This document shows positions 21,713-64,000 of a DNA stretch of 64,000 nt, in pieces. The position numbers and the translations under genes are program-made. The stretch is taken from the IMG/VR virus record IMGVR_UViG_3300046820_001584, positions 21,741 to 85,740 of that record; one strand, written 5' to 3'. Positions within the stretch are counted from its first letter, which is position 1. Each line of letters opens with the position of its first letter. The notes beneath the pieces were generated by a model. The model did no database searches. It saw only the letters and a program-made list of their open reading frames with translations, and was not told where the DNA came from. The stretch is from a virus.

Positions 21713-22450
21713 TTATGCTGAGTGTGATGAGATGACACGGTCAATAATTAGTCCGTATTCCTGACCTGACTTAGCGCCGTCTGGAAGCAAACGGAATGTT
21801 ACTGGGAATGTTGATGCTGCGTTACGAGCCAAAGAGAACTGTGACTGTTGTACAGAAAGAACACGACGTGCATAATATACACGCTCAGTAATCAAACCAA
21901 GTGTACCGTCAGATGCTGCTGAACCACCTTGTGGTGCTGCACCGACTGCAACTAATTGACGCTCATTTGGAGCCTGTCCAAGAGCACCAGCTTCTAGTCC
22001 AAGTGTACGCTTTGCAGCTGCACCTGTTCCTGAATCTGCGAGAGTTGATGTTCCCTGACCAAATACAGCAAGAATGTTCTCTAGAGTACCTTCTGCCATT
22101 TCTGTAGCGATCATAACTTCCATTGACTCCTTGAAAAGCTTTGCTGTATCAAGAAGCTGATCTACTGTTACTGAACCGTATGATGGGTTGTAAGTAATCT
22201 GAAGACCGTTGTTTGTGTAACCTACGTTACGGAATTTGTTTGTTGCGTCTGCATTAAGAGTTTCTGTGTAAGACTTTCCTGCTGTCTTAACTACTGGGGT
22301 TCCAGTTGAAGTTTCGTTTTCGAAAGCTACACCAGATACTGAACCAGGCTCCATGTTTTCTACATATCCTGCTGTTGTGATGTCCTTAGTAGACAAGAAG
22401 AGCGGTGAAGCTCCAACAAGAATATTCTTAGCATTGTTATACTTTGCCAT
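21713..22450 (-). CDS. Major tail tube protein
   Basis: 245 residues, before the chaperone pair and flanked by a terminator, as for abundant tube proteins. Sequence is beta-rich with a Gly/Ala-rich insert and the 'GLQITYNPSYGSVTVDQLL' strand-helix element (about 83-101). An SD, GGAGG, lies 8 nt before ATG 22450. It forms the stacked hexamers of the tail. Confidence 0.85.
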   Translation of the reverse strand: MAKYNNAKNILVGASPLFLSTKDITTAGYVENMEPGSVSGVAFENETSTGTPVVKTAGKSYTETLNADATNKFRNVGYTNNGLQITYNPSYGSVTVDQLLDTAKLFKESMEVMIATEMAEGTLENILAVFGQGTSTLADSGTGAAAKRTLGLEAGALGQAPNERQLVAVGAAPQGGSAASDGTLGLITERVYYARRVLSVQQSQFSLARNAASTFPVTFRLLPDGAKSGQEYGLIIDRVISSHSA

Positions 22451-54750: not shown

Positions 54751-54891
54751 ATGGTTCATCATTTTGCAAAGTGGATGGCTAGTCCACAATTTAAAAGTCC
54801 CCAGATTTGTAACGGGTCTTGCAAACACGAAGAAGCAAAAAAAGAAAACTCAATTTTTGAAAAACTATTAAAGAAGGTTGGTAAGAAATAA
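54751..54891 (+). CDS. Small basic Cys-containing protein
   Basis: 46 residues: MVHHFAKWMASPQFKS... with C20/C24 (ICNGSC) and two early His, then a Lys-rich helix. The stop shares one base with the next start (TAATG). Very similar His/Cys spacing suggests a metal-binding peptide. Function unknown. Confidence 0.6.
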   Translation: MVHHFAKWMASPQFKSPQICNGSCKHEEAKKENSIFEKLLKKVGKK

Positions 54892-55751
54892 TGTTTTATG
54901 ACAGAGAAGATTGTACACGACTTTCATTTTTCCCAGATGATTATGGAACACCTAGCGGAGTATTTTTATTTAAGGGATTCTATACTGATGAAGAGTGCAA
55001 AATTGTAGAAGACGCACTTAAAGAATACAAGTATGACGATGTCTACGAACAAACATTAATTAGCTGGTATGCGGATAAGCTTTCTCCACCAATTCGTGGT
55101 CTACACAAGCTTTGGGAAAAGGCTAGCGACCTATTGTATCCAGAATATGTTATCCACCCACAAAACAACGTATTAGTTATAAGTGAGCATATGAAGCAAG
55201 GTATGTTTACTCACTCAGACTCTCCAGGAAAAGGCGAATGCCACAGACTTTCACAGGTAGATGTATGGAAAACTTGCTGCGAATTAGATTACGGCCTAGT
55301 TGCTTATTTTGGAGACTTTGAAGGCGGAGAAATCTTCTATGTAAACATTAATGAAGATGGATCTAAAAAGGACCCAGATGTTAACTCAAAGATACTAGAA
55401 TTTAAGCCAGAAAGAGGAGACTTGGTCGTTCATGGCGCATTCTCCCCACATACACATGGAGTTAAAGAAGTAACAAAGGGTGTTAGATATGCTTTTTCAA
55501 ACTTTGTTTTAAAGGCAGAAGATAACCCAGGAACTTTTTACAACTACAAGACTCCAGAGTATTATGAGCAGATTAAAGATGTCGATACAGACTTTGAAAA
55601 ATTTCAACACACCTGGATGCAGCCACTCAAGCAAAATCCACAGTTTACAGATGAAAGAATCAAAATGTTACAGGCTTCTGGACTAGAGGGAGTAGAATTA
55701 GCAAATGCATTTCCTTTTGATCATGACGAAGTAAATGCCAAAACCGTTTGA
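54891..55751 (+). CDS. Fe(II)/2OG oxygenase, P4H-like (6)
   Basis: 286 residues, longer than its relatives. H108-S-D110 ('MFTHSDSP'), H189 in 'SPHTHGV', R199. 'YFGDFEGGEIFYVNINEDG' (129-147) extended between strands. Overlaps the next oxygenase-like gene by 17 nt. Rightward, in the lysis/methyltransferase region rather than the fibre cluster. Confidence 0.88.
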   Translation: MFYDREDCTRLSFFPDDYGTPSGVFLFKGFYTDEECKIVEDALKEYKYDDVYEQTLISWYADKLSPPIRGLHKLWEKASDLLYPEYVIHPQNNVLVISEHMKQGMFTHSDSPGKGECHRLSQVDVWKTCCELDYGLVAYFGDFEGGEIFYVNINEDGSKKDPDVNSKILEFKPERGDLVVHGAFSPHTHGVKEVTKGVRYAFSNFVLKAEDNPGTFYNYKTPEYYEQIKDVDTDFEKFQHTWMQPLKQNPQFTDERIKMLQASGLEGVELANAFPFDHDEVNAKTV

Positions 55752-56304
55752 GGCTAACTCTAATCTACAAGAAATACATAAAGGGATATACCTATACAAA
55801 GGATTCCTTACAAAAAAAGAATGCTATTACTTTGTAAAACAGCTGTCTTCATTTAAGGAAGAAAGTTGGTATAAGCATGAAAATACAATCCCAGGAGATA
55901 TATCTGGGGACTATATGGATGGTAAGTTAAGCATAGACATTATTGATCAAGAATTTCACGACAAGATAATAAATATGTTTGCCCCAGAGTTTTGGATTTT
56001 TTCACATAGCAATTTTTTAAAAATGGAAACTGGAGAGTCTTCAGACATACAGCATTCGCTTTCACAGAAAATGGAATTATTTAAAGATATCATACCCTAC
56101 AAAATAGCCGTATATGTAAGTGACTTCGGCGGCGGAGAGATAGTATTTCCAAATATAGGATTTGAGTATAAGCCAGAGCCTGGCGATCTTTTAGTATTTA
56201 TGGCTGGAATAGAGTATGAGCATTATACTAAGTTAGTTACATCTGGTACTAGATACGCATATATGGACTATTTGATTAAACATCCACAATATTTTATGCC
56301 TTAA
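55735..56304 (+). CDS. 2OG oxygenase-like protein with changed metal ligand
   Basis: 189 residues, same fold signature ('YVSDFGGGEIVFPNIGFEYKPEPGDLLVF', about 127-155; H163; R173) but the site expected to be H-x-D reads H107-S-L109. Loss of the Asp leaves one metal face open. It may be inactive, or have altered chemistry as in 2OG halogenases, in which Ala or Gly replaces Asp. Coupled to the active oxygenase before it, so a partner role is also possible. Confidence 0.75.
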   Translation: MPKPFEANSNLQEIHKGIYLYKGFLTKKECYYFVKQLSSFKEESWYKHENTIPGDISGDYMDGKLSIDIIDQEFHDKIINMFAPEFWIFSHSNFLKMETGESSDIQHSLSQKMELFKDIIPYKIAVYVSDFGGGEIVFPNIGFEYKPEPGDLLVFMAGIEYEHYTKLVTSGTRYAYMDYLIKHPQYFMP

Positions 56305-56359
56305 AGTGCGAAAAAAGTGCGTCGGCGAGAAAGAACACATTTAGTCAACTGGAATATAT

Positions 56360-56375
56360 TGTTCCACGTGAAACA
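56360..56375 (+). other. parS-like ParB binding site
   Basis: TGTTCCACGTGAAACA, a perfect match to the bacterial chromosomal parS consensus TGTTnCACGTGAAACA. No ParA or ParB gene is in the window. Host ParB binding is the simplest reading. Confidence 0.75.
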
Positions 56376-56437
56376 TATTATCTGATCTGCATCAACTTCT
56401 TAATATACCCCACAGAAAGCCTGTAGAGGCTCTCTAA

Positions 56438-56525
56438 GCCTTTACTAGGCTATTTGCCTATACCAGGGCGGGAGAGGGCCAAAAAGTCCCTTTACGGTAA
56501 TATACTAGAGTTTCCCAGTAGCAAG
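56438..56525 (+). ncRNA. Cluster of short inverted repeats, possible structured RNA
   Basis: Hairpin-like units AGCCTgtagAGGCT, AGCCTttactAGGCT and AGGGccaaaaagtCCCT appear in a row, with similar AGCC/GGCT cores. It may be a small RNA, or iterons; no promoter or terminator is clear. Confidence 0.3.
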
Positions 56526-56592
56526 TAAGACGAGATATAGACTCATAAGTAACAAGGAGAATCTAATCAGGTATCTATATGCTTTCCATTTC

Positions 56593-56712
56593 TTATAGGT
56601 CATCTTCGTCCTCTATGTCAAAGATATCTTTTATCCCCGCCATTTTTTTAGCTTCGTATAAAAAGATTATTACTGGAGACATAATAGATACGATTAGTAA
56701 AACAAAACCAAG
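56593..56712 (-). CDS. Possible small membrane protein (TTG start)
   Basis: 39 codons from TTG 56712: one hydrophobic segment (VLFLLIVSIMSPVIIFLY) and an acidic end (IEDEDDL). No ATG of good position and no clear SD, so support is weak. Confidence 0.3.
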   Translation of the reverse strand, partial: LGFVLLIVSIMSPVIIFLYEAKKMAGIKDIFDIEDEDDL

Positions 56713-56766
56713 GTATTTTTTTCTGAACAATTTCATATTTCTATTATACTATACATAATATCCTAG

Positions 56767-56794
56767 TTGACTAGTAATTTTTCTACAGTATAAT
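56767..56794 (+). promoter_or_regulatory. Leaderless promoter TTGACT-16-TATAAT
   Basis: TTGACT (56767-56772), 16 nt, TATAAT (56789-56794), then 6 nt to ATG 56801. The predicted start of the message is the start codon of the methyltransferase gene. Confidence 0.78.
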
Positions 56795-56800
56795 AGTAAT

Positions 56801-57448
56801 ATGAACTATACAATTGAGCCTTGGAAAGACAAAGTACTAGATGCAGAGTTTCTTGAAGTTTTAAATGAAATTATATCTTTAAATCTCAAGCTAGCTGCAA
56901 CACCAGAAGAATATCTTAAGCAATGGGATCCTTTTGAAAGATACTACATCTTATGGAATGCATTAAAGCAAATTTCTGTAGATGGAGACTTTGTGCAATG
57001 TGGTGTCTATAAAGGCGAAGAAGCTTTTTATATGGCCAAAGAATGCAAGACACATCTGCACCTATTTGACTCATTTGAAGGAGCAAAAGATCTTGGAGAT
57101 CTTGATAACAAGTACTACGAAGAGAATCCTTATAAGTGTTCTGTAGAAGAAGCAAGATCCGTACTCGCTCAATTTGATAATTTAACTATTAATGTTGGTT
57201 CCGTACCCGCCAATTTTGAAACAGTACAGTCAATTGCATTTTTGCATGTTGATGTTAATCTTTATGCTCCGACCAAAATAACTTTAACTGAGCTATGGCC
57301 TAAAGTTGTATCTGGTGGTATGGTTATGGTTGATCTTCATGACTCCTATTCTTCAGGAGCAGAAATTGCAGTTAATGAATTTTTTGAATCACTAGGGATA
57401 GAACTTCAAAAGCTTCCTACTGGTATTGTAGTAGCTTACAAGCCTTGA
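56801..57448 (+). CDS. TylF/MycF-type O-methyltransferase
   Basis: 215 residues. 'GDFVQCGVYKGEEAFYMAK' is the SAM-binding start, 'HLHLFDSFEGAKDL' the following strand, 'IAFLHVDVNLYAPTKITLTELWPKVVSGGMVMVDLHD' the metal/catalytic segment, and a final 'EIAVNEFFESLG'. This matches the macrocin-O-methyltransferase (TylF) family, which methylates sugar hydroxyls in a Mg-dependent way and is also found near glycan-modifying phage genes. It stops 1 nt before the convergent oxygenase gene. Confidence 0.85.
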   Translation: MNYTIEPWKDKVLDAEFLEVLNEIISLNLKLAATPEEYLKQWDPFERYYILWNALKQISVDGDFVQCGVYKGEEAFYMAKECKTHLHLFDSFEGAKDLGDLDNKYYEENPYKCSVEEARSVLAQFDNLTINVGSVPANFETVQSIAFLHVDVNLYAPTKITLTELWPKVVSGGMVMVDLHDSYSSGAEIAVNEFFESLGIELQKLPTGIVVAYKP

Positions 57449-57449
57449 T

Positions 57450-57477
57450 TTACGAGTAGAGACCTTCTTCTACGTAA
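57450..57477. terminator. Bidirectional hairpin between convergent genes
   Basis: TTAC-gaGTAGA / TCTACGTAA stem spanning the stop of the leftward gene and the end of the rightward one; no T run, so it may work as a weak shared terminator. Confidence 0.45.
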
Positions 57478-58145
57478 GACTCCATAAATTTCTTTAGTCT
57501 TTTGTTGTCTGATGGACCATGAGCTATAGTGTAATGAAATCTAGAATCTTCTAGGTTGAATGGCTTATCTGGCCATGAAATCAAATTGTAAATCTCTGGA
57601 GTTAGATAATAGTTATCGTTTACTTGTGCAGCATGCGTATATCTATGTCCAGATATAACTTTTTTAACAGCATGTACACTTTGTATGTCATGCATTACTA
57701 AGTCACCAGCATTTGGTTTGTAACAAAAATCAAATTCTGGATAACATATTTCTCCGCCCTCATAATCATCATTGAAGTATAGTATAAAACCAAATCTAGG
57801 TTGACGAATAGCCCTCTGCTCTAATTCTAAATTTTTATCTACTTCATTGTCGTGTATAATATTTGCGTAATTAAGTATATCAACATGAGGAGTAAACCCC
57901 ATTGTTTTGTGTCTTACAACAATGTGATCAAAGTCAAGTAATTCTGCTTCTGGCATGTGTAAGGATTCTAATAATCTATTTTTGTATTGAGAAAAACTTT
58001 TTAGGTCATGGATATGATAATTCTCTTCCCACTGGTGAGAATCTATTTCTTTCATTACAGGAATAATTTCTTCCGCAGATAAAAAATTTTCCCAAACGTA
58101 TACGCCTGGACATAATTCTTTATAGTTATCATTAAGATATTTCAT
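57450..58145 (-). CDS. Fe(II)/2OG oxygenase, P4H-like (7), leaderless start
   Basis: 231 residues, H87-V-D89, H158 in 'MHDIQSVHAV', R168 in 'SGHRYTHA', and 'YFNDDYEGGEICYP' (123-136). Convergent with the methyltransferase. Its ATG is 6 nt after TATAAT, fitting a leaderless message. Confidence 0.88.
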   Translation of the reverse strand: MKYLNDNYKELCPGVYVWENFLSAEEIIPVMKEIDSHQWEENYHIHDLKSFSQYKNRLLESLHMPEAELLDFDHIVVRHKTMGFTPHVDILNYANIIHDNEVDKNLELEQRAIRQPRFGFILYFNDDYEGGEICYPEFDFCYKPNAGDLVMHDIQSVHAVKKVISGHRYTHAAQVNDNYYLTPEIYNLISWPDKPFNLEDSRFHYTIAHGPSDNKRLKKFMESYVEEGLYS

Positions 58146-58151
58146 ATTAAT

Positions 58152-58160
58152 ATTATACCA
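58152..58160 (-). promoter_or_regulatory. Extended -10 promoter (TGG-TATAAT), leaderless
   Basis: Minus strand TGG then TATAAT (58157-58152), 6 nt, ATG 58145. It lies right after the tRNA gene, so transcripts may also continue from the tRNA. Confidence 0.65.
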
Positions 58161-58163
58161 TTG

Positions 58164-58238
58164 TAGGGATACTGGGATTTGAACCCAGACTCTATTGTAT
58201 ATAAGACAAGTGCTTTAACCAGATTAAGCTATATCCCC
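58164..58238 (-). tRNA. tRNA-Ile (anticodon UAU)
   Basis: A 75-nt cloverleaf folds by eye: acceptor GGGGATA / TATCCCT, D arm with GG, anticodon loop CUUAUAU (anticodon UAU at 34-36), T arm CTGGG / CCCAG with TTCAAAT. One C-U mismatch at pair 27-43 in the anticodon stem. It reads AUA codons, which are common in this AT-rich genome. The 3' CCA is not encoded in full. Confidence 0.85.
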
Positions 58239-58319
58239 TAGTTTATATTGAATTGCAGAATTATTCCGCATATATAAACTAATATAGCTATTACACCGAT
58301 CCAAATTATTGTTTTCATT
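58239..58319 (-). CDS. 26-residue membrane microprotein
   Basis: ATG 58319 to TAG 58239, which touches the first base of the tRNA gene. Sequence is a single hydrophobic helix (about 4-22) with no charged residues after Lys2. Weak SD. May be a real micro-protein or part of the tRNA leader. Confidence 0.5.
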
Positions 58320-58326
58320 AGTTCTA

Positions 58327-58896
58327 TTACCAAGCAAACACAAAAGAAGCTCTAGGCTCAGACACGACTACTTGATGAACTACTCCAGTAGGACAAAAAA
58401 TTGCATCTCCTGGGTTTAAGACTATAGACTCATATTCTGCTTCAGATTTAGTTTTGTGAAAATCAGATTCTGAGATATTTTTGTAAATTCTCCACTCAAC
58501 CTGACCTTCGCAGTGCCAAAGAAATACATTGTGGTTATCTGGATGAATGTAGTATCCGTTTGCTTCGTTTCCAATCAGATTAGATATAACCTTTGGACCA
58601 CTATTAAGCAAGCTGTAGCCAAATAGTTCTGTGAGTTTATCCTCATTTTGCAAAAACTTTTTATAGATGCCAATATCTTTAAAGTCTAGCGCTCCCACAA
58701 TAACTGGATCTAGTCTGTTGTATGTTAGCATAGTTCCAGAAATACTTCTTGGGTCATCAGAAAATATTTGCTTTGTGCTACTGGAAGCTCTATGCATTAA
58801 CTCAATAACATCATACCATGTTGGAGATTCTGTAAAATATGATCTAAATACTGCAACCTGGTTTAGATCTATAGCTTCTTGAATTTTCTCGTGCAT
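58327..58896 (-). CDS. JmjC/cupin-type oxygenase-like protein
   Basis: 189 residues. Likely metal ligands H118 and D120 (IHPDNH), H174 (GVVHQVVV), R182 nearby; pattern 'WHCEGQVEWRIY' (127-138) and 'VLNPGDAIFCPTGVVHQVV' (159-177) fits the cupin/JmjC fold with a 2OG-Fe site. A second kind of 2OG enzyme, in the same region as the P4H types. The substrate may be protein or ribosome-like; unknown. Confidence 0.75.
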   Translation of the reverse strand: MHEKIQEAIDLNQVAVFRSYFTESPTWYDVIELMHRASSSTKQIFSDDPRSISGTMLTYNRLDPVIVGALDFKDIGIYKKFLQNEDKLTELFGYSLLNSGPKVISNLIGNEANGYYIHPDNHNVFLWHCEGQVEWRIYKNISESDFHKTKSEAEYESIVLNPGDAIFCPTGVVHQVVVSEPRASFVFAW

Positions 58897-59210: not shown

Positions 59211-59232
59211 TGTCAGTCCCCCCTGCTAGACT
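59211..59232 (+). promoter_or_regulatory. TGTCAG-N10 promoter (1)
   Basis: TGTCAG (59211-59216), 10 nt, TAGACT (59227-59232). The -10 is the weakest of the series. Precedes SD AAAGGAG and the ATG at 59282. Confidence 0.6.
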
Positions 59233-59281
59233 AAAGATATAAAGAAAGCAAGAAACACTTGCTAGAAAGGAGTCTAGTAAT

Positions 59282-59437
59282 ATGACTCAACTAACTGAAC
59301 AACTATTCAGCACTATCGTGCACGAATATCATAATGGTGGCGTGTCCTCATCTTATGGACTAGACACATACACACGCAAGCAAGTGCTTGCCTACCTTAT
59401 CCGCTCTAAGGGTTGTGAGTGTATCAACTGTCTGTGA
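59282..59437 (+). CDS. Early mini-protein (51 aa)
   Basis: MTQLTEQLFSTIVHEYHNGG..., ends CECINCL (Cys-rich tip). SD AAAGGAG at 59267. Located after TGTCAG promoter 1. Unknown function; Cys-x-Cys-x2-Cys end may bind metal. Confidence 0.6.
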   Translation: MTQLTEQLFSTIVHEYHNGGVSSSYGLDTYTRKQVLAYLIRSKGCECINCL

Positions 59438-59448
59438 GGTAACTCACA
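59433..59448. promoter_or_regulatory. CRP/GlxR-like palindrome (2)
   Basis: TGTGA-GGTAAC-TCACA, perfect. It overlaps the stop of the previous mini-gene. 27-nt gap to the next TGTCAG box. Confidence 0.6.
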
Positions 59449-59475
59449 CGACACACCCCCTCTATATCCCTAAAA

Positions 59476-59497
59476 TGTCAGCCACATAGGCTATAAT
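59476..59497 (+). promoter_or_regulatory. TGTCAG-N10 promoter (2)
   Basis: TGTCAG (59476-59481), 10 nt, TATAAT (59492-59497), followed by a leader with AAAGAAAG and the ATG at 59533. Confidence 0.75.
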
Positions 59498-59532
59498 TCC
59501 TACTATAACCACTAAAGAAAGAAGAACAGATA

Positions 59533-59706
59533 ATGACTATCACTTACTCAATTTGGCAAGGCTCTCGCCTACTATCTATTGACAATGTAGCACACGAGAT
59601 GAAGGCTATTGACCACCTAATCGCATCTCTCAACGCTAGCGACCTAGCAAAGAAAGTAAAGTTTTCCGCTAATGTAATGACTATCAAGACAGGAGATAAT
59701 AACTAA
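59533..59706 (+). CDS. Early mini-protein (57 aa)
   Basis: MTITYSIWQGSRLLSIDNVAHEMKAI..., a mixed alpha/beta frame. Shares its stop base with the next ATG (TAATG). SD GAAGAA upstream. No known function. Confidence 0.65.
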   Translation: MTITYSIWQGSRLLSIDNVAHEMKAIDHLIASLNASDLAKKVKFSANVMTIKTGDNN

Positions 59707-59873
59707 TGATGACTAAATGGGATACTATCCAAGCCGATGTAAGCGATGCCTATGTCTATCTAGATGAAGAAGAAGCCTATAATAAGGCACTAGCAGAGGG
59801 CGTAGATTTTGGCGCTGATGATTATGATGATGATGAATTACACAAATCACTAACGCTAAATTGGGAGGACTAA
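59706..59873 (+). CDS. Acidic early mini-protein (55 aa)
   Basis: Very acidic: a run of Asp/Glu in the middle and end (FGADDYDDDELHK). Could mimic DNA or bind basic proteins; unproven. Coupled by TAATG on both sides. Confidence 0.6.
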   Translation: MMTKWDTIQADVSDAYVYLDEEEAYNKALAEGVDFGADDYDDDELHKSLTLNWED

Positions 59874-60025
59874 TGATTACTAGCGGACTTATCTTAGAAC
59901 TAAACGAATACGGCTTAGAGTTTGATAGTTTCTTAGGGGCTATCTATCTACCTTGGCACACTATTGTTATCACCGCCCTACTAGTAACCGCCTACAAGAT
60001 TTACAAGAGAAAGAAGAATAAATAA
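59873..60025 (+). CDS. Single-TM mini-protein (50 aa)
   Basis: One hydrophobic stretch (about 21-40, 'LGAIYLPWHTIVITALLVTA') and a basic C-terminus (KRKKNK), giving likely positive-inside orientation. Coupled by TAATG. Confidence 0.65.
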   Translation: MITSGLILELNEYGLEFDSFLGAIYLPWHTIVITALLVTAYKIYKRKKNK

Positions 60026-60195
60026 TGAAAGAATGTAAAGTAATCAACTGTAATAACACCGATTTGGTTTATAGCGGTATAGATGCCCTTATGCTAGGCG
60101 GTATCCCTACCGAAACATATTGCTACTCTTGCGCTAATGCGTATAATCAAATAGATAGCGCTATAACACTACTAAGAGAAAAGGCTAACGCATAA
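60025..60195 (+). CDS. Cys-containing mini-protein (56 aa)
   Basis: MKECKVINCNNTDLVY... with Cys4/Cys9 and Cys33/Cys36 (YCYSC): a zinc-ribbon-like pattern. Coupled to the next gene (TAATG). Confidence 0.65.
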   Translation: MKECKVINCNNTDLVYSGIDALMLGGIPTETYCYSCANAYNQIDSAITLLREKANA

Positions 60196-60299
60196 TGAAT
60201 AGACTACTAACTACACTAGTCCAAATAGGTATCGGTATTCCCGCCCTACTTATGCTCCGCCTAGTAATAAAAGACCTTAGAGAGAATGGATTAAATTAA
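60195..60299 (+). CDS. Single-TM mini-protein (34 aa)
   Basis: MNRLLTTLVQIGIGIPALLM... a membrane helix (about 4-25) with a charged tail. Stops just before the next ATG. Confidence 0.55.
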   Translation: MNRLLTTLVQIGIGIPALLMLRLVIKDLRENGLN

Positions 60300-60470
60300 A
60301 TGCTAAGCAAGAAACACTATATCGGTATCTCCGAAATTCTTTCATCTTATAAAGATTTAATCGGTGATGAATTTACTTATCACGATCTCGTTGAAGATTT
60401 TGCGGGATATTTTGCAGAGGATAATCTTTTATTCGATGCACAAAAATTTGTAGACGCTTGTAATAAATAA
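60300..60470 (+). CDS. KHY-family early mini-protein (56 aa)
   Basis: MLSKKHYIGISEILSSYKDLIG...VEDFAGYFAEDNLLFDAQKFVDACNK. Resembles a small helical family common in actinobacteriophages (KHY...F..FA.DN..FD...F..A) and is a paralogue of the 61597 product. Function unknown. Confidence 0.7.
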   Translation: MLSKKHYIGISEILSSYKDLIGDEFTYHDLVEDFAGYFAEDNLLFDAQKFVDACNK

Positions 60471-60482
60471 AAATAAATAAAC

Positions 60483-60595
60483 GGCGTGTCGGCTTGACAA
60501 TGTCAAGCTGATCCCCCACACATGCACGGGGTCGGGCGTGTCGTTATGAACTTGTTATAAAATCCCCTGAAAATTTACGGCGTGTCGATTTGACA
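60483..60595 (+). repeat. GGCGTGTCG repeat elements (3 copies)
   Basis: GGCGTGTCG at 60483, 60535 and 60579. The first and third continue as nnTTGACA, as at 63115. The middle copy shares a 20-bp direct repeat (60527-60546) with 62067-62086. Confidence 0.75.
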
Positions 60596-60614
60596 GACAT
60601 ATCGGACATTTTTA

Positions 60615-60630
60615 TGTGATTAGTATCACA
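60615..60630. promoter_or_regulatory. CRP/GlxR-like palindrome (3)
   Basis: TGTGA-TTAGTA-TCACA, perfect, 49-nt gap to the TGTCAG box. Confidence 0.6.
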
Positions 60631-60679
60631 CGGCTTGAGCGTCTCAAAGTATGGAATTACTGGCTAGTAGGTAGATAAA

Positions 60680-60701
60680 TGTCAGACCCCTGATGTATAA
60701 T
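60680..60701 (+). promoter_or_regulatory. TGTCAG-N10 promoter (3)
   Basis: TGTCAG (60680-60685), 10 nt, TATAAT (60696-60701), leader with AACAACGAAAGAAGG before ATG 60735. Confidence 0.75.
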
Positions 60702-60734
60702 GTCTACTATAACAACAACGAAAGAAGGTCAAAA

Positions 60735-60851
60735 ATGAACCTAGACGAATTCAAGGCGTATGTCAGCGCCACCCGTGAAGCAAGCAAGGCAGAAGCCTTG
60801 TCAGTGCTATCTGCTACAATTACCAAATCAACAACGAAAGAAGGCAAATAA
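60735..60851 (+). CDS. Mini-protein carrying a nested promoter (38 aa)
   Basis: MNLDEFKAYVSATREASKAEALSVLSA..., Ala/Ser-rich helical. The second half encodes the next TGTCAG promoter and SD, so it may be a leader peptide or a duplicated promoter that kept an ORF. Confidence 0.5.
   Translation: MNLDEFKAYVSATREASKAEALSVLSATITKSTTKEGK
60797..60818 (+). promoter_or_regulatory. TGTCAG-N10 promoter (4), inside a mini-gene
   Basis: TGTCAG (60797-60802), 10 nt, TACAAT (60813-60818), with the standard AACAACGAAAGAAGG leader before ATG 60851. Confidence 0.7.
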
Positions 60852-61051
60852 TGTCAGCAAATGTCTATACTGTAGAAAGTCTCCTAGTGGGAAAAATGTA
60901 TTACTCAAATTCTGTAAAGGGAGAAATTATCTCCGCAGAAAAAAATGATGATGTCTGGTATTCCGATTCAGACACTTACAAGGTGCAGGTGCGCCCTCTA
61001 AATTCTTTCAAGGATACTTATCGCTATGTAGCGGTGAAGGTTGGTGAATAA
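60851..61051 (+). CDS. Early small protein (66 aa)
   Basis: MSANVYTVESLLVGKMYYSN..., beta-rich with 'YKVQVRPLNSFKDTYRYVAVKVGE'. A small barrel (SH3-like) is possible. Coupled to the next gene. Confidence 0.65.
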   Translation: MSANVYTVESLLVGKMYYSNSVKGEIISAEKNDDVWYSDSDTYKVQVRPLNSFKDTYRYVAVKVGE

Positions 61052-61215
61052 TGCTGAACATAATTGATAAAACCGATTTCTATGAAATCGCAGATGAAAT
61101 GATTTTCTGTTGTGATGAAAGTCAGTTTAAGTATTACTGTATCGAGCACTTAGAATTTATGGGTTGCTACTTTTGCGAATTTGATTACTCTAAAGATTGC
61201 GAGGAACAACACTAA
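61051..61215 (+). CDS. Cys-rich early mini-protein (54 aa)
   Basis: Six Cys (C20, C21, C30, C39, C42, C50) and acidic residues; 'GCYFCEFDYSKDCEEQH' end. A zinc-binding fold is likely. Function unknown. Confidence 0.6.
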   Translation: MLNIIDKTDFYEIADEMIFCCDESQFKYYCIEHLEFMGCYFCEFDYSKDCEEQH

Positions 61216-61337
61216 TGGGATACATAGAAATTTTCCGAATTGATGATGAGGGTGCGGGTTGGGTAGATTTATCCGAAGCCACCCCCGATGAATTGCTAAA
61301 CCTTGAAATAGGTTTATTTCAAGAGGGCGCTCTCTGA
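61215..61337 (+). CDS. Early mini-protein (40 aa)
   Basis: MGYIEIFRIDDEGAGWVDLSEATPDELLNL..., short beta strands followed by a helix. Resembles many 40-aa phage ORFs. Ends just before promoter 5. Confidence 0.55.
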   Translation: MGYIEIFRIDDEGAGWVDLSEATPDELLNLEIGLFQEGAL

Positions 61338-61339
61338 TT

Positions 61340-61361
61340 TGTCAGACCCCTCTGCTACAAT
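61340..61361 (+). promoter_or_regulatory. TGTCAG-N10 promoter (5)
   Basis: TGTCAG (61340-61345), 10 nt, TACAAT (61356-61361), SD GAAAGGG before ATG 61394. No CRP-like site lies upstream (coding sequence). Confidence 0.7.
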
Positions 61362-61393
61362 ACTCTAAATAACCAAACGAAAGGGAAAACCTA

Positions 61394-61600
61394 ATGTATC
61401 AAATCTCTGTTTCATACGATAGCAAGCCTATCCATTTTAATAAGAACTATGCAGACGCACTAGAGGCGTTCACCGAATTTAATAAATTCACCGATTGGGG
61501 TTGGGCTAATGAATACTCAACTGTTAATCTGCAAATGCCAACAGGCAAAATGTATACACGCATTTTTTATCGTGAAGGTCGAAAGGTCGTAACAAAATGA
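61394..61600 (+). CDS. Early small protein (68 aa)
   Basis: MYQISVSYDSKPIHFNKNYADALEAFTEF..., beta-alpha-beta pattern ending RIFYREGRKVVTK. First gene of operon 5; 4-nt ATGA overlap with the next. Confidence 0.65.
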   Translation: MYQISVSYDSKPIHFNKNYADALEAFTEFNKFTDWGWANEYSTVNLQMPTGKMYTRIFYREGRKVVTK

Positions 61601-61791
61601 TGACTCGTAAAGATTATGTCGCAACGGCAGAAATTCTAAAGTATGCAAGCAATAAAACGCACCCAGCGTTATTTTCTAAAATCGTAAATGATTTTGCGGA
61701 AATGTTTGCAAAAGATAATCCTCGATTTGATGTCGTGAGATTTCATGAAGCCAGCAACTACACAACAGTTTTCGGAAAGGTTGAAAAATGA
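61597..61791 (+). CDS. KHY-family paralogue (64 aa)
   Basis: MMTRKDYVATAEILKYASNKTHPALF...FAEMFAKDNPRFDVVRFHEASNY: same family as the 60300 gene (DY..A.IL...FA.DNPRFD..RF). Two copies in 1.3 kb suggest duplication. Function unknown. ATGA overlap both sides. Confidence 0.7.
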   Translation: MMTRKDYVATAEILKYASNKTHPALFSKIVNDFAEMFAKDNPRFDVVRFHEASNYTTVFGKVEK

Positions 61792-61931
61792 TTCTTCAAA
61801 TGTCTGCAATTTATTGCGAGGATTGTAATGATTCTGCTTTTATTATTGAACATGAGGACATGATAGAAATTTCTGCGTGTAACTGTTCACAAGATTTACA
61901 AGAAATAGCGGAGTGGATAAATGAACCTTAA
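61788..61931 (+). CDS. Cys-containing mini-protein (47 aa)
   Basis: Two Cys pairs (Y-C-E-D-C and A-C-N-C) in an acidic background; zinc knuckle possible. Overlaps the following start by 11 nt. Confidence 0.55.
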   Translation: MILQMSAIYCEDCNDSAFIIEHEDMIEISACNCSQDLQEIAEWINEP

Positions 61932-62040
61932 AGAAAAAATAAAACGCATTCAGGAATTGCGGAGATCAAATGCCGCAACTCCTGTTCGCAATAAGAAAAA
62001 ATATTCACGCAAGCGCAAGCATAAAAATTCAGAGTATTGA
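61921..62040 (+). CDS. Basic mini-protein (39 aa)
   Basis: Strongly basic end (RNKKKYSRKRKHKNSEY), probably nucleic-acid binding. Overlaps the upstream gene by 11 nt. Confidence 0.55.
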   Translation: MNLKEKIKRIQELRRSNAATPVRNKKKYSRKRKHKNSEY

Positions 62041-62050
62041 ATATTTATGC

Positions 62051-62086
62051 GACCCGCACATAGCTGCGGGGTCGGGCGTGTCGTTA
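62051..62086 (+). repeat. Hairpin plus GGCGTGTCG direct repeat
   Basis: GACCCGCA / TGCGGGGTC stem with one bulge (62051-62073), then the 20-bp direct repeat shared with 60527-60546. Could be a terminator followed by a binding element; a variant GGCGTGTTG lies at 62119. Confidence 0.65.
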
Positions 62087-62134
62087 AGGGTGTGATCAAA
62101 AACACCCTGGAATTTTTGGGCGTGTTGCGTAAAA

Positions 62135-62156
62135 TGTCAGTGGGCCATGGTATTAT
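62135..62156 (+). promoter_or_regulatory. TGTCAG-N10 promoter (6)
   Basis: TGTCAG (62135-62140), 10 nt, TATTAT (62151-62156), SD GAAAGG before ATG 62186. Only a half CRP-like site (TGTGA at 62091) upstream. Confidence 0.7.
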
Positions 62157-62185
62157 TCTCTTAAATCAAACGAAAGGCTCATCCC

Positions 62186-62296
62186 ATGGATTTTTATGAT
62201 GACTACTATGAAACAGATATGATACGCCCCGACGCTAAATCATGCTATTGTAAATTGCATTCTATTTGCACTAATTGCAAGGAGAGTTATAACTAA
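62186..62296 (+). CDS. Mini zinc-ribbon protein (36 aa)
   Basis: C20-x-C22 and C28-x2-C31 (SCYC...CTNC) preceded by an acidic/Tyr-rich head. Shares its stop base with the next ATG. Confidence 0.6.
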   Translation: MDFYDDYYETDMIRPDAKSCYCKLHSICTNCKESYN

Positions 62297-63018
62297 TGAC
62301 TAAACTAAAACGTTCTAATGATAGAAAGGTGGCTAACCTTGTCACAAAAAATGGAAAGCAAGCCGCAATTGCCAATACATTCGGATTACCTGCAGGAAAA
62401 GACTATTCATGTCCTGGCGCTACGAGTATCTGCGAAAGTGTTTGCTACGCTGGCAAATTGGAAAAGTTATTCCCTGGAGTAAAAACTAATCTGCTACACA
62501 ATTGGGAATTGCTACGCAATGCCGATATGGATACAATGCTTATTCTATTAGATGAGATGATTGTAGAATTTATTGCAGATTGTGAAAAGAAAGACGCTCC
62601 TAAGTTATTCCGTATCCACTGGGACGGAGATTTCTTCAATGATACTTATACCTATGCCTGGAAAGTAATTATTGAAAATCATCCCGATATTCAATTCTGG
62701 GTATATACACGAGTAAAGTCTGCGGCCCTTATTCTTAAGGATGTCTCTAACCTATCTCTATATTATTCTACCGATGACGAGAATAAAGAAATAGCATTCG
62801 ATTTGAAAACTAATTCTAAAGTCCGCCTTGCTTATCTAGGAAAGACATTCGCCGCAACAGAAGACACAATGAAAGAATTGACTGGTAAGCCTGGCGCTAA
62901 GTGCCCTGAGAATATGAAATCAATTCCACTTATTAGCAATGCAGGGTCCGCTTGTGTTTCATGTGGCTTGTGTGTTTATGGTAAAGCGGATATTAGATTT
63001 TCTGCGAGTAAAAAATAA
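62296..63018 (+). CDS. GP88-family protein
   Basis: 240 residues. 'TFGLPAGKDYSCPGATSICESVCYAGKLEKLFP' and 'LFRIHWDGDFFNDTYTYAWKVIIENHPDIQFWVYTRV' match the gene-88 (GP88) family of mycobacteriophages, with late Cys pairs (CVSCGLCVYG). Biochemical role not known; the Cys set may hold an Fe-S or zinc site. Good support for an actinobacterial host. Confidence 0.8.
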   Translation: MTKLKRSNDRKVANLVTKNGKQAAIANTFGLPAGKDYSCPGATSICESVCYAGKLEKLFPGVKTNLLHNWELLRNADMDTMLILLDEMIVEFIADCEKKDAPKLFRIHWDGDFFNDTYTYAWKVIIENHPDIQFWVYTRVKSAALILKDVSNLSLYYSTDDENKEIAFDLKTNSKVRLAYLGKTFAATEDTMKELTGKPGAKCPENMKSIPLISNAGSACVSCGLCVYGKADIRFSASKK

Positions 63019-63113
63019 TGTATGATGTAATTGGTGTAATTGGAGGGGCCATAGCTATAGTACTTTCGCTATTACCTTTTGTTCTTGCATACTATATTTT
63101 TTCTAAGATGTAG
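63018..63113 (+). CDS. Single-TM mini-protein (31 aa)
   Basis: One membrane helix (about 4-28, VIGVIGGAIAIVLSLLP...). Coupled to GP88 by TAATG. Confidence 0.55.
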   Translation: MYDVIGVIGGAIAIVLSLLPFVLAYYIFSKM

Positions 63114-63114
63114 C

Positions 63115-63192
63115 GGCGTGTCGACTTGACAAAGATCAGGTCGGCCCGTATATATGGGGGGTTATCCACAGTGTTAAGTGGACTTATCCACA
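63115..63192 (+). other. Candidate replication origin with two DnaA boxes
   Basis: GGCGTGTCG-ac-TTGACA (63115-63131), then TATATA 17 nt later (63149-63154), then two perfect TTATCCACA DnaA boxes at 63162-63170 and 63184-63192 in the same direction, 22 bp apart. A CGACACGCC inverted copy at 63228 closes the region. No coding frame. Confidence 0.55.
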
Positions 63193-63204
63193 ACCCCTGG
63201 AATT

Positions 63205-63220
63205 TGTGAGTATTATCACA
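63205..63220. promoter_or_regulatory. CRP/GlxR-like palindrome (4)
   Basis: TGTGA-GTATTA-TCACA, perfect, 33-nt gap to the TGTCAG box. Confidence 0.6.
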
Positions 63221-63253
63221 AAAGCTGCGACACGCCCATAATGGATTAGGTAA

Positions 63254-63275
63254 TGTCAGTGCCCAATGCTATAAT
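63254..63275 (+). promoter_or_regulatory. TGTCAG-N10 promoter (7)
   Basis: TGTCAG (63254-63259), 10 nt, TATAAT (63270-63275), SD GAAAGG before ATG 63304. Confidence 0.75.
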
Positions 63276-63303
63276 ACTCTTATCCAACAACGAAAGGCTA
63301 CAA

Positions 63304-63510
63304 ATGACACAAGTAGAACACTCACTCAAATTCGTAACTGAGTTTGACGAAACACATCCAATCGCACAACGATTTTTACAATTAGAGTCAGAGGCTCAAA
63401 TTGCTATGCTAGAGTCAATGCTAAAAGATTTATTAGTATCTGCTATTCAACCAGTAATTGACCAAATAAATGAAAATGGCTCTTACGCAATTCTAAAGGT
63501 GGCTAACTAA
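63304..63510 (+). CDS. Early small protein (68 aa)
   Basis: Start ATG 63304 follows SD GAAAGG; a longer frame from 63253 would begin in the promoter. 'MTQVEHSLKFVTEFDETHPIA...ALMESMLKDLL' like helical coils. Unknown function. 1-nt overlap with the next. Confidence 0.65.
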   Translation: MTQVEHSLKFVTEFDETHPIAQRFLQLESEAQIAMLESMLKDLLVSAIQPVIDQINENGSYAILKVAN

Positions 63511-63785
63511 TGGGAAGTAATCTAGCATACGATTTAGCAAGCGATGAACTAGGACTAAACTTAGAGAGAGGATTAGCAATTCACTTGCAATCTAATCACT
63601 ACCCGCCCGTTCCCGTTGCTATGGTGCAACCCTGCATAGATGCTATTGACGCATACTATGAGGAAGATTTTGATCGTGAGATTAATTTACCTGAAGGTAT
63701 CTCTTGGCGAGGTCAGACTTCCTGCCCTGCGTCTGCCATAGTAGATGCTCACCACTTAGATGCGTGGCTTCCTGAAAGTGATTAG
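63510..63785 (+). CDS. HHLDAWL-family early protein (91 aa)
   Basis: MGSNLAYDLASDELGLNLERGL...SNHYPPVPVAMVQ... ends DAHHLDAWLPESD, a pattern of short actinophage proteins of unknown function. Ends inside the following CRP-like palindrome. Confidence 0.7.
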   Translation: MGSNLAYDLASDELGLNLERGLAIHLQSNHYPPVPVAMVQPCIDAIDAYYEEDFDREINLPEGISWRGQTSCPASAIVDAHHLDAWLPESD

Positions 63786-63792
63786 CATCACA
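63777..63792. promoter_or_regulatory. CRP/GlxR-like palindrome (5), one mismatch
   Basis: AGTGA-TTAGCA-TCACA, one base from consensus, overlaps the stop of the previous gene. 38-nt gap to the TGTCAG box. Confidence 0.5.
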
Positions 63793-63830
63793 CAATAACT
63801 TTCTCAAATACTGAGATAGGGCTATACAAA

Positions 63831-63852
63831 TGTCAGCCCCCAATGCTACAAT
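63831..63852 (+). promoter_or_regulatory. TGTCAG-N10 promoter (8)
   Basis: TGTCAG (63831-63836), 10 nt, TACAAT (63847-63852), SD AAGAGG before ATG 63880. Confidence 0.72.
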
Positions 63853-63879: not shown

Positions 63880-64000
63880 ATGACAATAGATAATAAACTC
63901 TATCAGGTTGGCGATTTATTCACCACCCTAAAGTCAAAAAAGACAGGTGTTATCAAAGAGATACACCCACAGGCATCTGGCTCGGTGCGTGTGCTACTGG
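63880..64000 (+). CDS. Early protein, partial (cut by right edge)
   Basis: MTIDNKLYQVGDLFTTLKSKKTGVIKEIHP..., at least 40 residues, running off the window. The 'YQVGDLFTTLKSKKTGVIKEI' beginning resembles small SH3/KOW-like barrels found in early phage proteins. Not complete. Confidence 0.65.
   Translation, partial: MTIDNKLYQVGDLFTTLKSKKTGVIKEIHPQASGSVRVLL

Follow-up and report, generated by a model that had tools for sequence, protein, structure and literature searches.

Which factor reads a promoter whose conserved box lies near −26, where no sigma factor domain normally binds, instead of −35? This question is raised by a gene block at one end of a phage contig, IMG/VR virus record IMGVR_UViG_3300046820_001584, whose final 64 kb (record positions 21,741 to 85,740 of 85,740 bases; here called the window) were analyzed. 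A reading of these letters without database searches (the sequence-only reading) had described eight copies of an unusual early promoter between positions 59211 and 63852, each consisting of TGTCAG, a gap of exactly 10 nucleotides (nt) and a −10-like box. We find that the eight units probably are PafBC-type promoters, i.e. promoters of the class known from actinobacteria as RecA-NDp, and that the reader would be PafBC.

Eight TGTCAG units and the RecA-NDp consensus

The pattern TGTCAG-N10-TANNNT occurs nine times in the window, in every case on the plus strand and within 59211-63852. Dinucleotide shuffles of the window gave a mean of 0.88 and a maximum of 4 matches, and none of 100 shuffles reached nine. 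The fixed gap and the −10 boxes listed in the sequence-only reading thus stand, as do seven of its eight coordinates; the fourth unit lies at 60799, two positions from the proposed 60797. TGTCAG by itself shows no enrichment, with 23 copies against an expected 31.6, so that its pairing with a −10 box at fixed spacing is the special part. Eight of the nine matches are promoter units, which occupy 4.6 kb of a single strand at the contig end; because the window ends where the record ends, the block runs off the contig. By the gene calls, every large gap in the plus-strand gene block holds one site. In the remaining 21.7 kb of the contig the pattern TGTCAG-N10-TAYAAT added no sites, and a looser pattern had no match in the first 20 kb. 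The element AACGAAAG, said to follow "usually", is found downstream of five of the eight units (60680, 60799, 61340, 62135 and 63254), which makes the word a fair one. The ninth match, at 60852, was rejected as a promoter: it is a real gene start that happens to resemble the motif.

The box occupies about −28 to −23, unlike a normal −35, as the sequence-only reading had noted. Sigma factor domains normally read nothing there, and recognition of the box must fall to a phage or host factor. The same position is that of the −26 element of RecA-NDp, the actinobacterial RecA-independent DNA-damage promoter by which these bacteria turn on repair genes; its printed consensus is tTGTCRgtg-8nt-TAnnnT. 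Counted from TGTCRG, this consensus becomes TGTCRG-N10-TAnnnT and is therefore the same as the phage units; promoter 4 (TTGTCAGTG-N8-TACAAT) matches it exactly. Of the two suggestions made earlier, an extended promoter or a phage or host factor, a promoter with a reading factor holds, while a new kind of extended promoter does not, since the motif is that of a known class. RecA-NDp promoters extend beyond mycobacteria to other actinobacteria, and their regulator is PafBC (PMC8223512). As described in PMC11804915, PafBC slots between domain 4 of sigma-A and the DNA, the helix-turn-helix of PafB binding the −26 motif and that of PafC binding the sigma domain as a substitute for the −35 element, and single-stranded DNA (ssDNA) activates PafBC.

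Promoter signatures across the clade

Relatives were taken as 80 viral loci with 87-99% identical GP88 that had been fetched by protein homology rather than by motif. In these loci, TGTCAG was followed by TANAAT or TATTAT at spacer 10 in 689 cases on the forward and 1 on the reverse strand, and every other spacer gave at most 31. One-letter variants of TGTCAG occurred 0-2 times each, except for TGTCGG (33, versus 322 for TGTCAG); the one position of the phage box that is open to change is the fifth (A or G). An IMG/VR-wide scan yielded at least 120 matches at spacer 10 and 25 for the spacer 11 control, and genome contigs scanned with the spacer 11 pattern gave only diffuse, chance-like matches. 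Single-match high-GC contigs from a scan with TTGTCAGTG...TAG look like chance and were left unused.

As suggested by the sequence-only reading, related genomes were searched for the motif, which proved to be present clade-wide, with 7-26 promoters in one block. Fourteen further records carry 7-14 copies each, nearly all on a single strand, and the divergent locus L319 carries 26 copies in 9 kb. The clade logo reads AAW-TGTC(A/g)G-W-S-S-N4-TG-C-TATAAT, with little information at −35 and a strongly kept extended −10 (TG 69%, G 82%). At promoter 1, where the window has TAGACT, the counterpart in a relative (G014) has TAGAAT as −10.

Promoter function is indicated by the placement of start codons. 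Among 2041 unique clade sites, the starts of open frames cluster 25-39 nt downstream, and a second sharp ATG peak lies exactly 6 and 7 nt after the −10 box (56 and 61 sites; 117 in all), with 0-3 ATGs at each of 3 to 5 and 8 to 9 nt. Control TAnnnT sites lack such peaks. In L319 and L387 together, 15 of 32 sites have an ATG 6 or 7 nt after the −10. Since these leaderless ATGs fall just where a leaderless transcript should start, the predicted transcription start lies 6-7 nt after the −10 and the eight units are, on this sequence evidence, promoters.

Promoter 4 lies within a short open reading frame (ORF; 60735-60851), and its codons could be compared among 34 distinct homologous segments. Leu is TTG in 34/34, Ser is TCA in 31 and TCG in 3, Ala is GCT in 34/34 and Thr is ACA in 34/34, so that the only freedom within TTGTCAG is A or G at box position 5. 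Because synonymous codons are frozen within the promoter while many codons just upstream vary among synonyms, selection acts here on the DNA itself. An inverted repeat (AAGGC-AGAA-GCCTT) lies just upstream, where the codons GCA AGC AAG are also almost frozen (33 of 34 segments).

Table 1. Positions of the TGTCAG units, the coding match and the GP88 marker gene in the window.
Feature	Position	Strand	Box and −10 element	Downstream or remark
Promoter 1	59211..59232	+	−26 box TGTCAG 59211-59216; −10 TAGACT 59227-59232	gene at 59282
Promoter 2	59476..59497	+	−26 box TGTCAG; −10 TATAAT 59492-59497	gene at 59533
Promoter 3	60680..60701	+	TGTCAG; −10 TATAAT 60696-60701	short ORF at 60735
Promoter 4	60799..60820	+	TTGTCAGTG-N8-TACAAT	within short ORF 60735-60851; gene at 60851
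Promoter 5	61340..61361	+	TGTCAGACCCCTCTGCTACAAT; −10 TACAAT	gene at 61394
Promoter 6	62135..62156	+	TGTCAGTG-N8-TATTAT	short ORF at 62186; GP88 gene at 62296
Promoter 7	63254..63275	+	TGTCAGTG-N8-TATAAT	gene at 63304
Promoter 8	63831..63852	+	TGTCAGCCCCCAATGCTACAAT; −10 TACAAT	ATG at 63880; its gene runs off contig end
Chance match, coding, no promoter	60852..60873	+		start of coding sequence ATGTCAGCAAATGTC (ATG TCA GCA AAT)
GP88-family gene (PF17338), marker of block	62296..63018	+

At promoter 7, an ATG inside AATGTCAG makes the ORF lister begin the gene at 63253; 63304 is more likely the true start.

Candidate readers of the −26 box

Host PafBC is the most likely reader, as the motif is that of a known RecA-NDp promoter together with its −26 element. 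The phage units share with the RecA-NDp promoters of mycobacteria and other actinobacteria (among them recA P1) the TGTCRG core, a position 5 restricted to R, the 10 nt to TAnnnT, a box centered near −26 and independence of a −35. They do not belong to the housekeeping sigma class with TTGnnn 17-18 nt before the −10, as TTG is missing at that distance from all nine window matches. A search for WYL (PafBC-type) domains found none in 19 phage records, with controls positive in 7 of 14 genomes; this favors a host-encoded reader. The phage units differ from bacterial RecA-NDp promoters in being carried by a virus as arrays, 7-26 per block, that precede small genes without known function, and in their AA(A/T) ahead of the box, the G/C pair after it, the strongly kept extended −10 TG and a −35 TTG in a fifth of cases.

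Several points weigh against PafBC as the reader. Of the "gtg" that comes after TGTCR, the clade keeps only a part (T in 65%, followed by G in 52% or C in 43%), and in the window TG directly follows TGTCRG at three of eight promoters. Ahead of TGTCAG the clade has AAA, versus a weak T in the mycobacterial consensus. About 21% of clade sites also carry TTG at the −35 place and may fire without PafBC, and the genes served are phage genes, with no repair genes among them. Finally, the host would have to carry pafBC, and the dependence of the units on PafBC is a prediction from sequence.

The alternative that the motif is a chance or coding repeat has practically no probability left. One of the nine matches, 60852, is indeed coding, but no shuffle reached the observed count, the strand bias is 689 to 1 and synonymous codons are frozen at promoter 4; the counts already refute it. 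It is unlikely that the box is instead read by a phage-encoded activator, such as a MotA-like protein of the T4 kind or a phage WhiB, acting beside the extended −10, in which case the likeness to RecA-NDp would be convergence. Middle promoters of T4 that depend on MotA do offer a parallel, in that an activator box near −30 together with an extended −10 replaces the −35, and WhiB proteins, which act on sigma-A, are encoded once in each near-complete relative. The MotA box, however, differs in sequence from TGTCAG, its activator is phage-encoded, and the search for a suitable activator encoded by these phages had no success: a phage WYL activator was absent from the 19 phage records, and WhiB as the reader is weakened by the Streptomyces phage StarPlatinum, which has WhiB but no TGTCRG-N10 sites in the regions searched, so that WhiB does not track the motif. 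Moreover, a phage activator would make the exact RecA-NDp match, down to the spacing and the R of position 5, a coincidence, and the first-transferred genes could not wait for an activator made by the phage.

Two further explanations have very little probability each. Another host regulator, ClgR (ClpR-like), might read the box, since it has been reported to recognize the RecA-NDp region in mycobacteria (cited in PMC5656591). Or the units might be ordinary extended −10 promoters with TGTCAG serving, much as a phage immunity site does, as an operator for a repressor within the spacer. The strength of the extended −10 would suit such an operator, which could also sit at a fixed register; yet most sites lack a −35, which fits activation better, the box matches a known activator element, and an operator would need no single exact spacing across some 2000 promoters.

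With PafBC as the reader, RNA polymerase with the housekeeping sigma would recognize the extended −10 (TG-n-TAnnnT) in the absence of a usable −35, and the host PafBC heterodimer, placed between sigma domain 4 and the DNA, would read TGTCRG at about −26. The block would then be transcribed when PafBC is active, which would tie it to the host DNA-damage signal or to phage-linked ssDNA. Such ssDNA could come from DNA entry (injection or end processing), from phage replication or from breakdown of the host chromosome. Should PafBC require ssDNA, expression of the genes could await damage or replication instead of beginning immediately, and those clade sites that have both elements, a fifth of the total, may provide a basal level. 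Like phage genes controlled by LexA and the SOS response, the block would couple a set of phage genes to the DNA-damage signal of the host, but through activation by PafBC and not through relief of LexA repression. We give about even chances to the wider proposal that a widespread clade of freshwater actinophages drives its first gene block from PafBC promoters of the host type, a task that mostly falls to ordinary sigma promoters in the Streptomyces relatives, so that ssDNA sensed by the host damage activator serves as switch or clock for takeover genes. The early timing assumed in the sequence-only reading is plausible, given that the block is homologous to one in the terminal repeats of Streptomyces phages.

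A search of the open-access literature for PafBC or RecA-NDp in connection with phages turned up no paper describing such promoters in a phage. What appears to be new is that a promoter class already known wires a block of phage genes; PafBC itself has been studied as a bacterial repair regulator. If correct, hundreds of lake-virus contigs would read the damage state of the host, or their own replication, through PafBC, which would provide a simple mechanism of gene timing for uncultured actinobacterial phages. The clade would also supply some 2000 distinct PafBC-type promoters, a natural collection that sharply defines the −26 element, and would offer a testable link to Streptomyces phages in culture.

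The phage, its relatives and the neighboring genes

The portal protein is 55-59% and GP88 about 52-55% identical to those of Streptomyces phages of the Stanwilliamsviridae, which are the best or nearly best match among cultured relatives for both, and the ribonucleotide reductase (RNR) of the window matches a phage family by profile. By this homology of portal, RNR and GP88, the phage is classed as Stanwilliamsviridae-like. WhiB, an actinobacterial protein, is present in 12 of 15 clade records, the three without it being contigs of only 83-86 kb; given WhiB in the clade and the Streptomyces phage relatives, the host is almost surely an actinobacterium. A freshwater habitat is suggested by the kind of metagenomes that usually yield such contigs. 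The loci L298/L304/L314 and L319 resemble unrelated phages at first sight but do not count as independent lineages, because their records G016 and G018 share the RNR profile, and G016 also the portal profile, of the window phage. In record G018, L319 (about 26-39 kb) carries its 26 promoters as TGTCAGACCCC, many of them leaderless; with 51% G+C, versus 40-41% in the two end pieces of the record, it looks like a block of foreign composition.

The GP88 homologue of Streptomyces phages sits in the terminal repeat, and in StarPlatinum the GP88 block is an exact repeat of 12,199 bases at both ends. The terminal-repeat promoters of StarPlatinum, NootNoot and Samisti12 resemble those of the clade in belonging to a related block with a GP88 gene, in serving one small gene or gene pair each, and in their extended −10 (TAGACT). 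In contrast to the clade, TGTCRG is absent or rare, some have TGTC at the same −28 position, and 21 of 30 promoters in StarPlatinum and NootNoot carry a TTG −35 at spacer 17-18; the clade value is 21% of 1903 sites (13% at spacer 17, 8% at spacer 18) versus a background of about 2% at any one position. NootNoot, Samisti12, EGole and Mandalore (L559, L561, L563 and L557) have TGTC at the spacer-10 place in 4-6 of about 16-19 promoters each, before TAGACT, mostly as TGTCC or TGTCT, at times as TGTCGG, and often together with a TTG −35. These sites are possibly hybrid promoters in cultured phages. Taken together, the promoters seem to form a graded series with −35 promoters at one end, −26 promoters at the other and hybrids between them, an order that implies no direction of change and in which the Streptomyces phages are related to one another. 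The terminal repeat of StarPlatinum (upstream regions of L087) further shows a repeated GCCGCCCCGG block, often then AAAAGATC, ahead of many promoters.

Adjoining the promoter block, window positions 54891-58896 hold genes for a protein weakly resembling 2OG-Fe(II) oxygenases, a TylF-type methyltransferase and a JmjC/cupin-like protein, and relatives carry further oxygenases. A tRNA-Ile gene (anticodon tat) lies beside the block on the minus strand, at 58163-58238.
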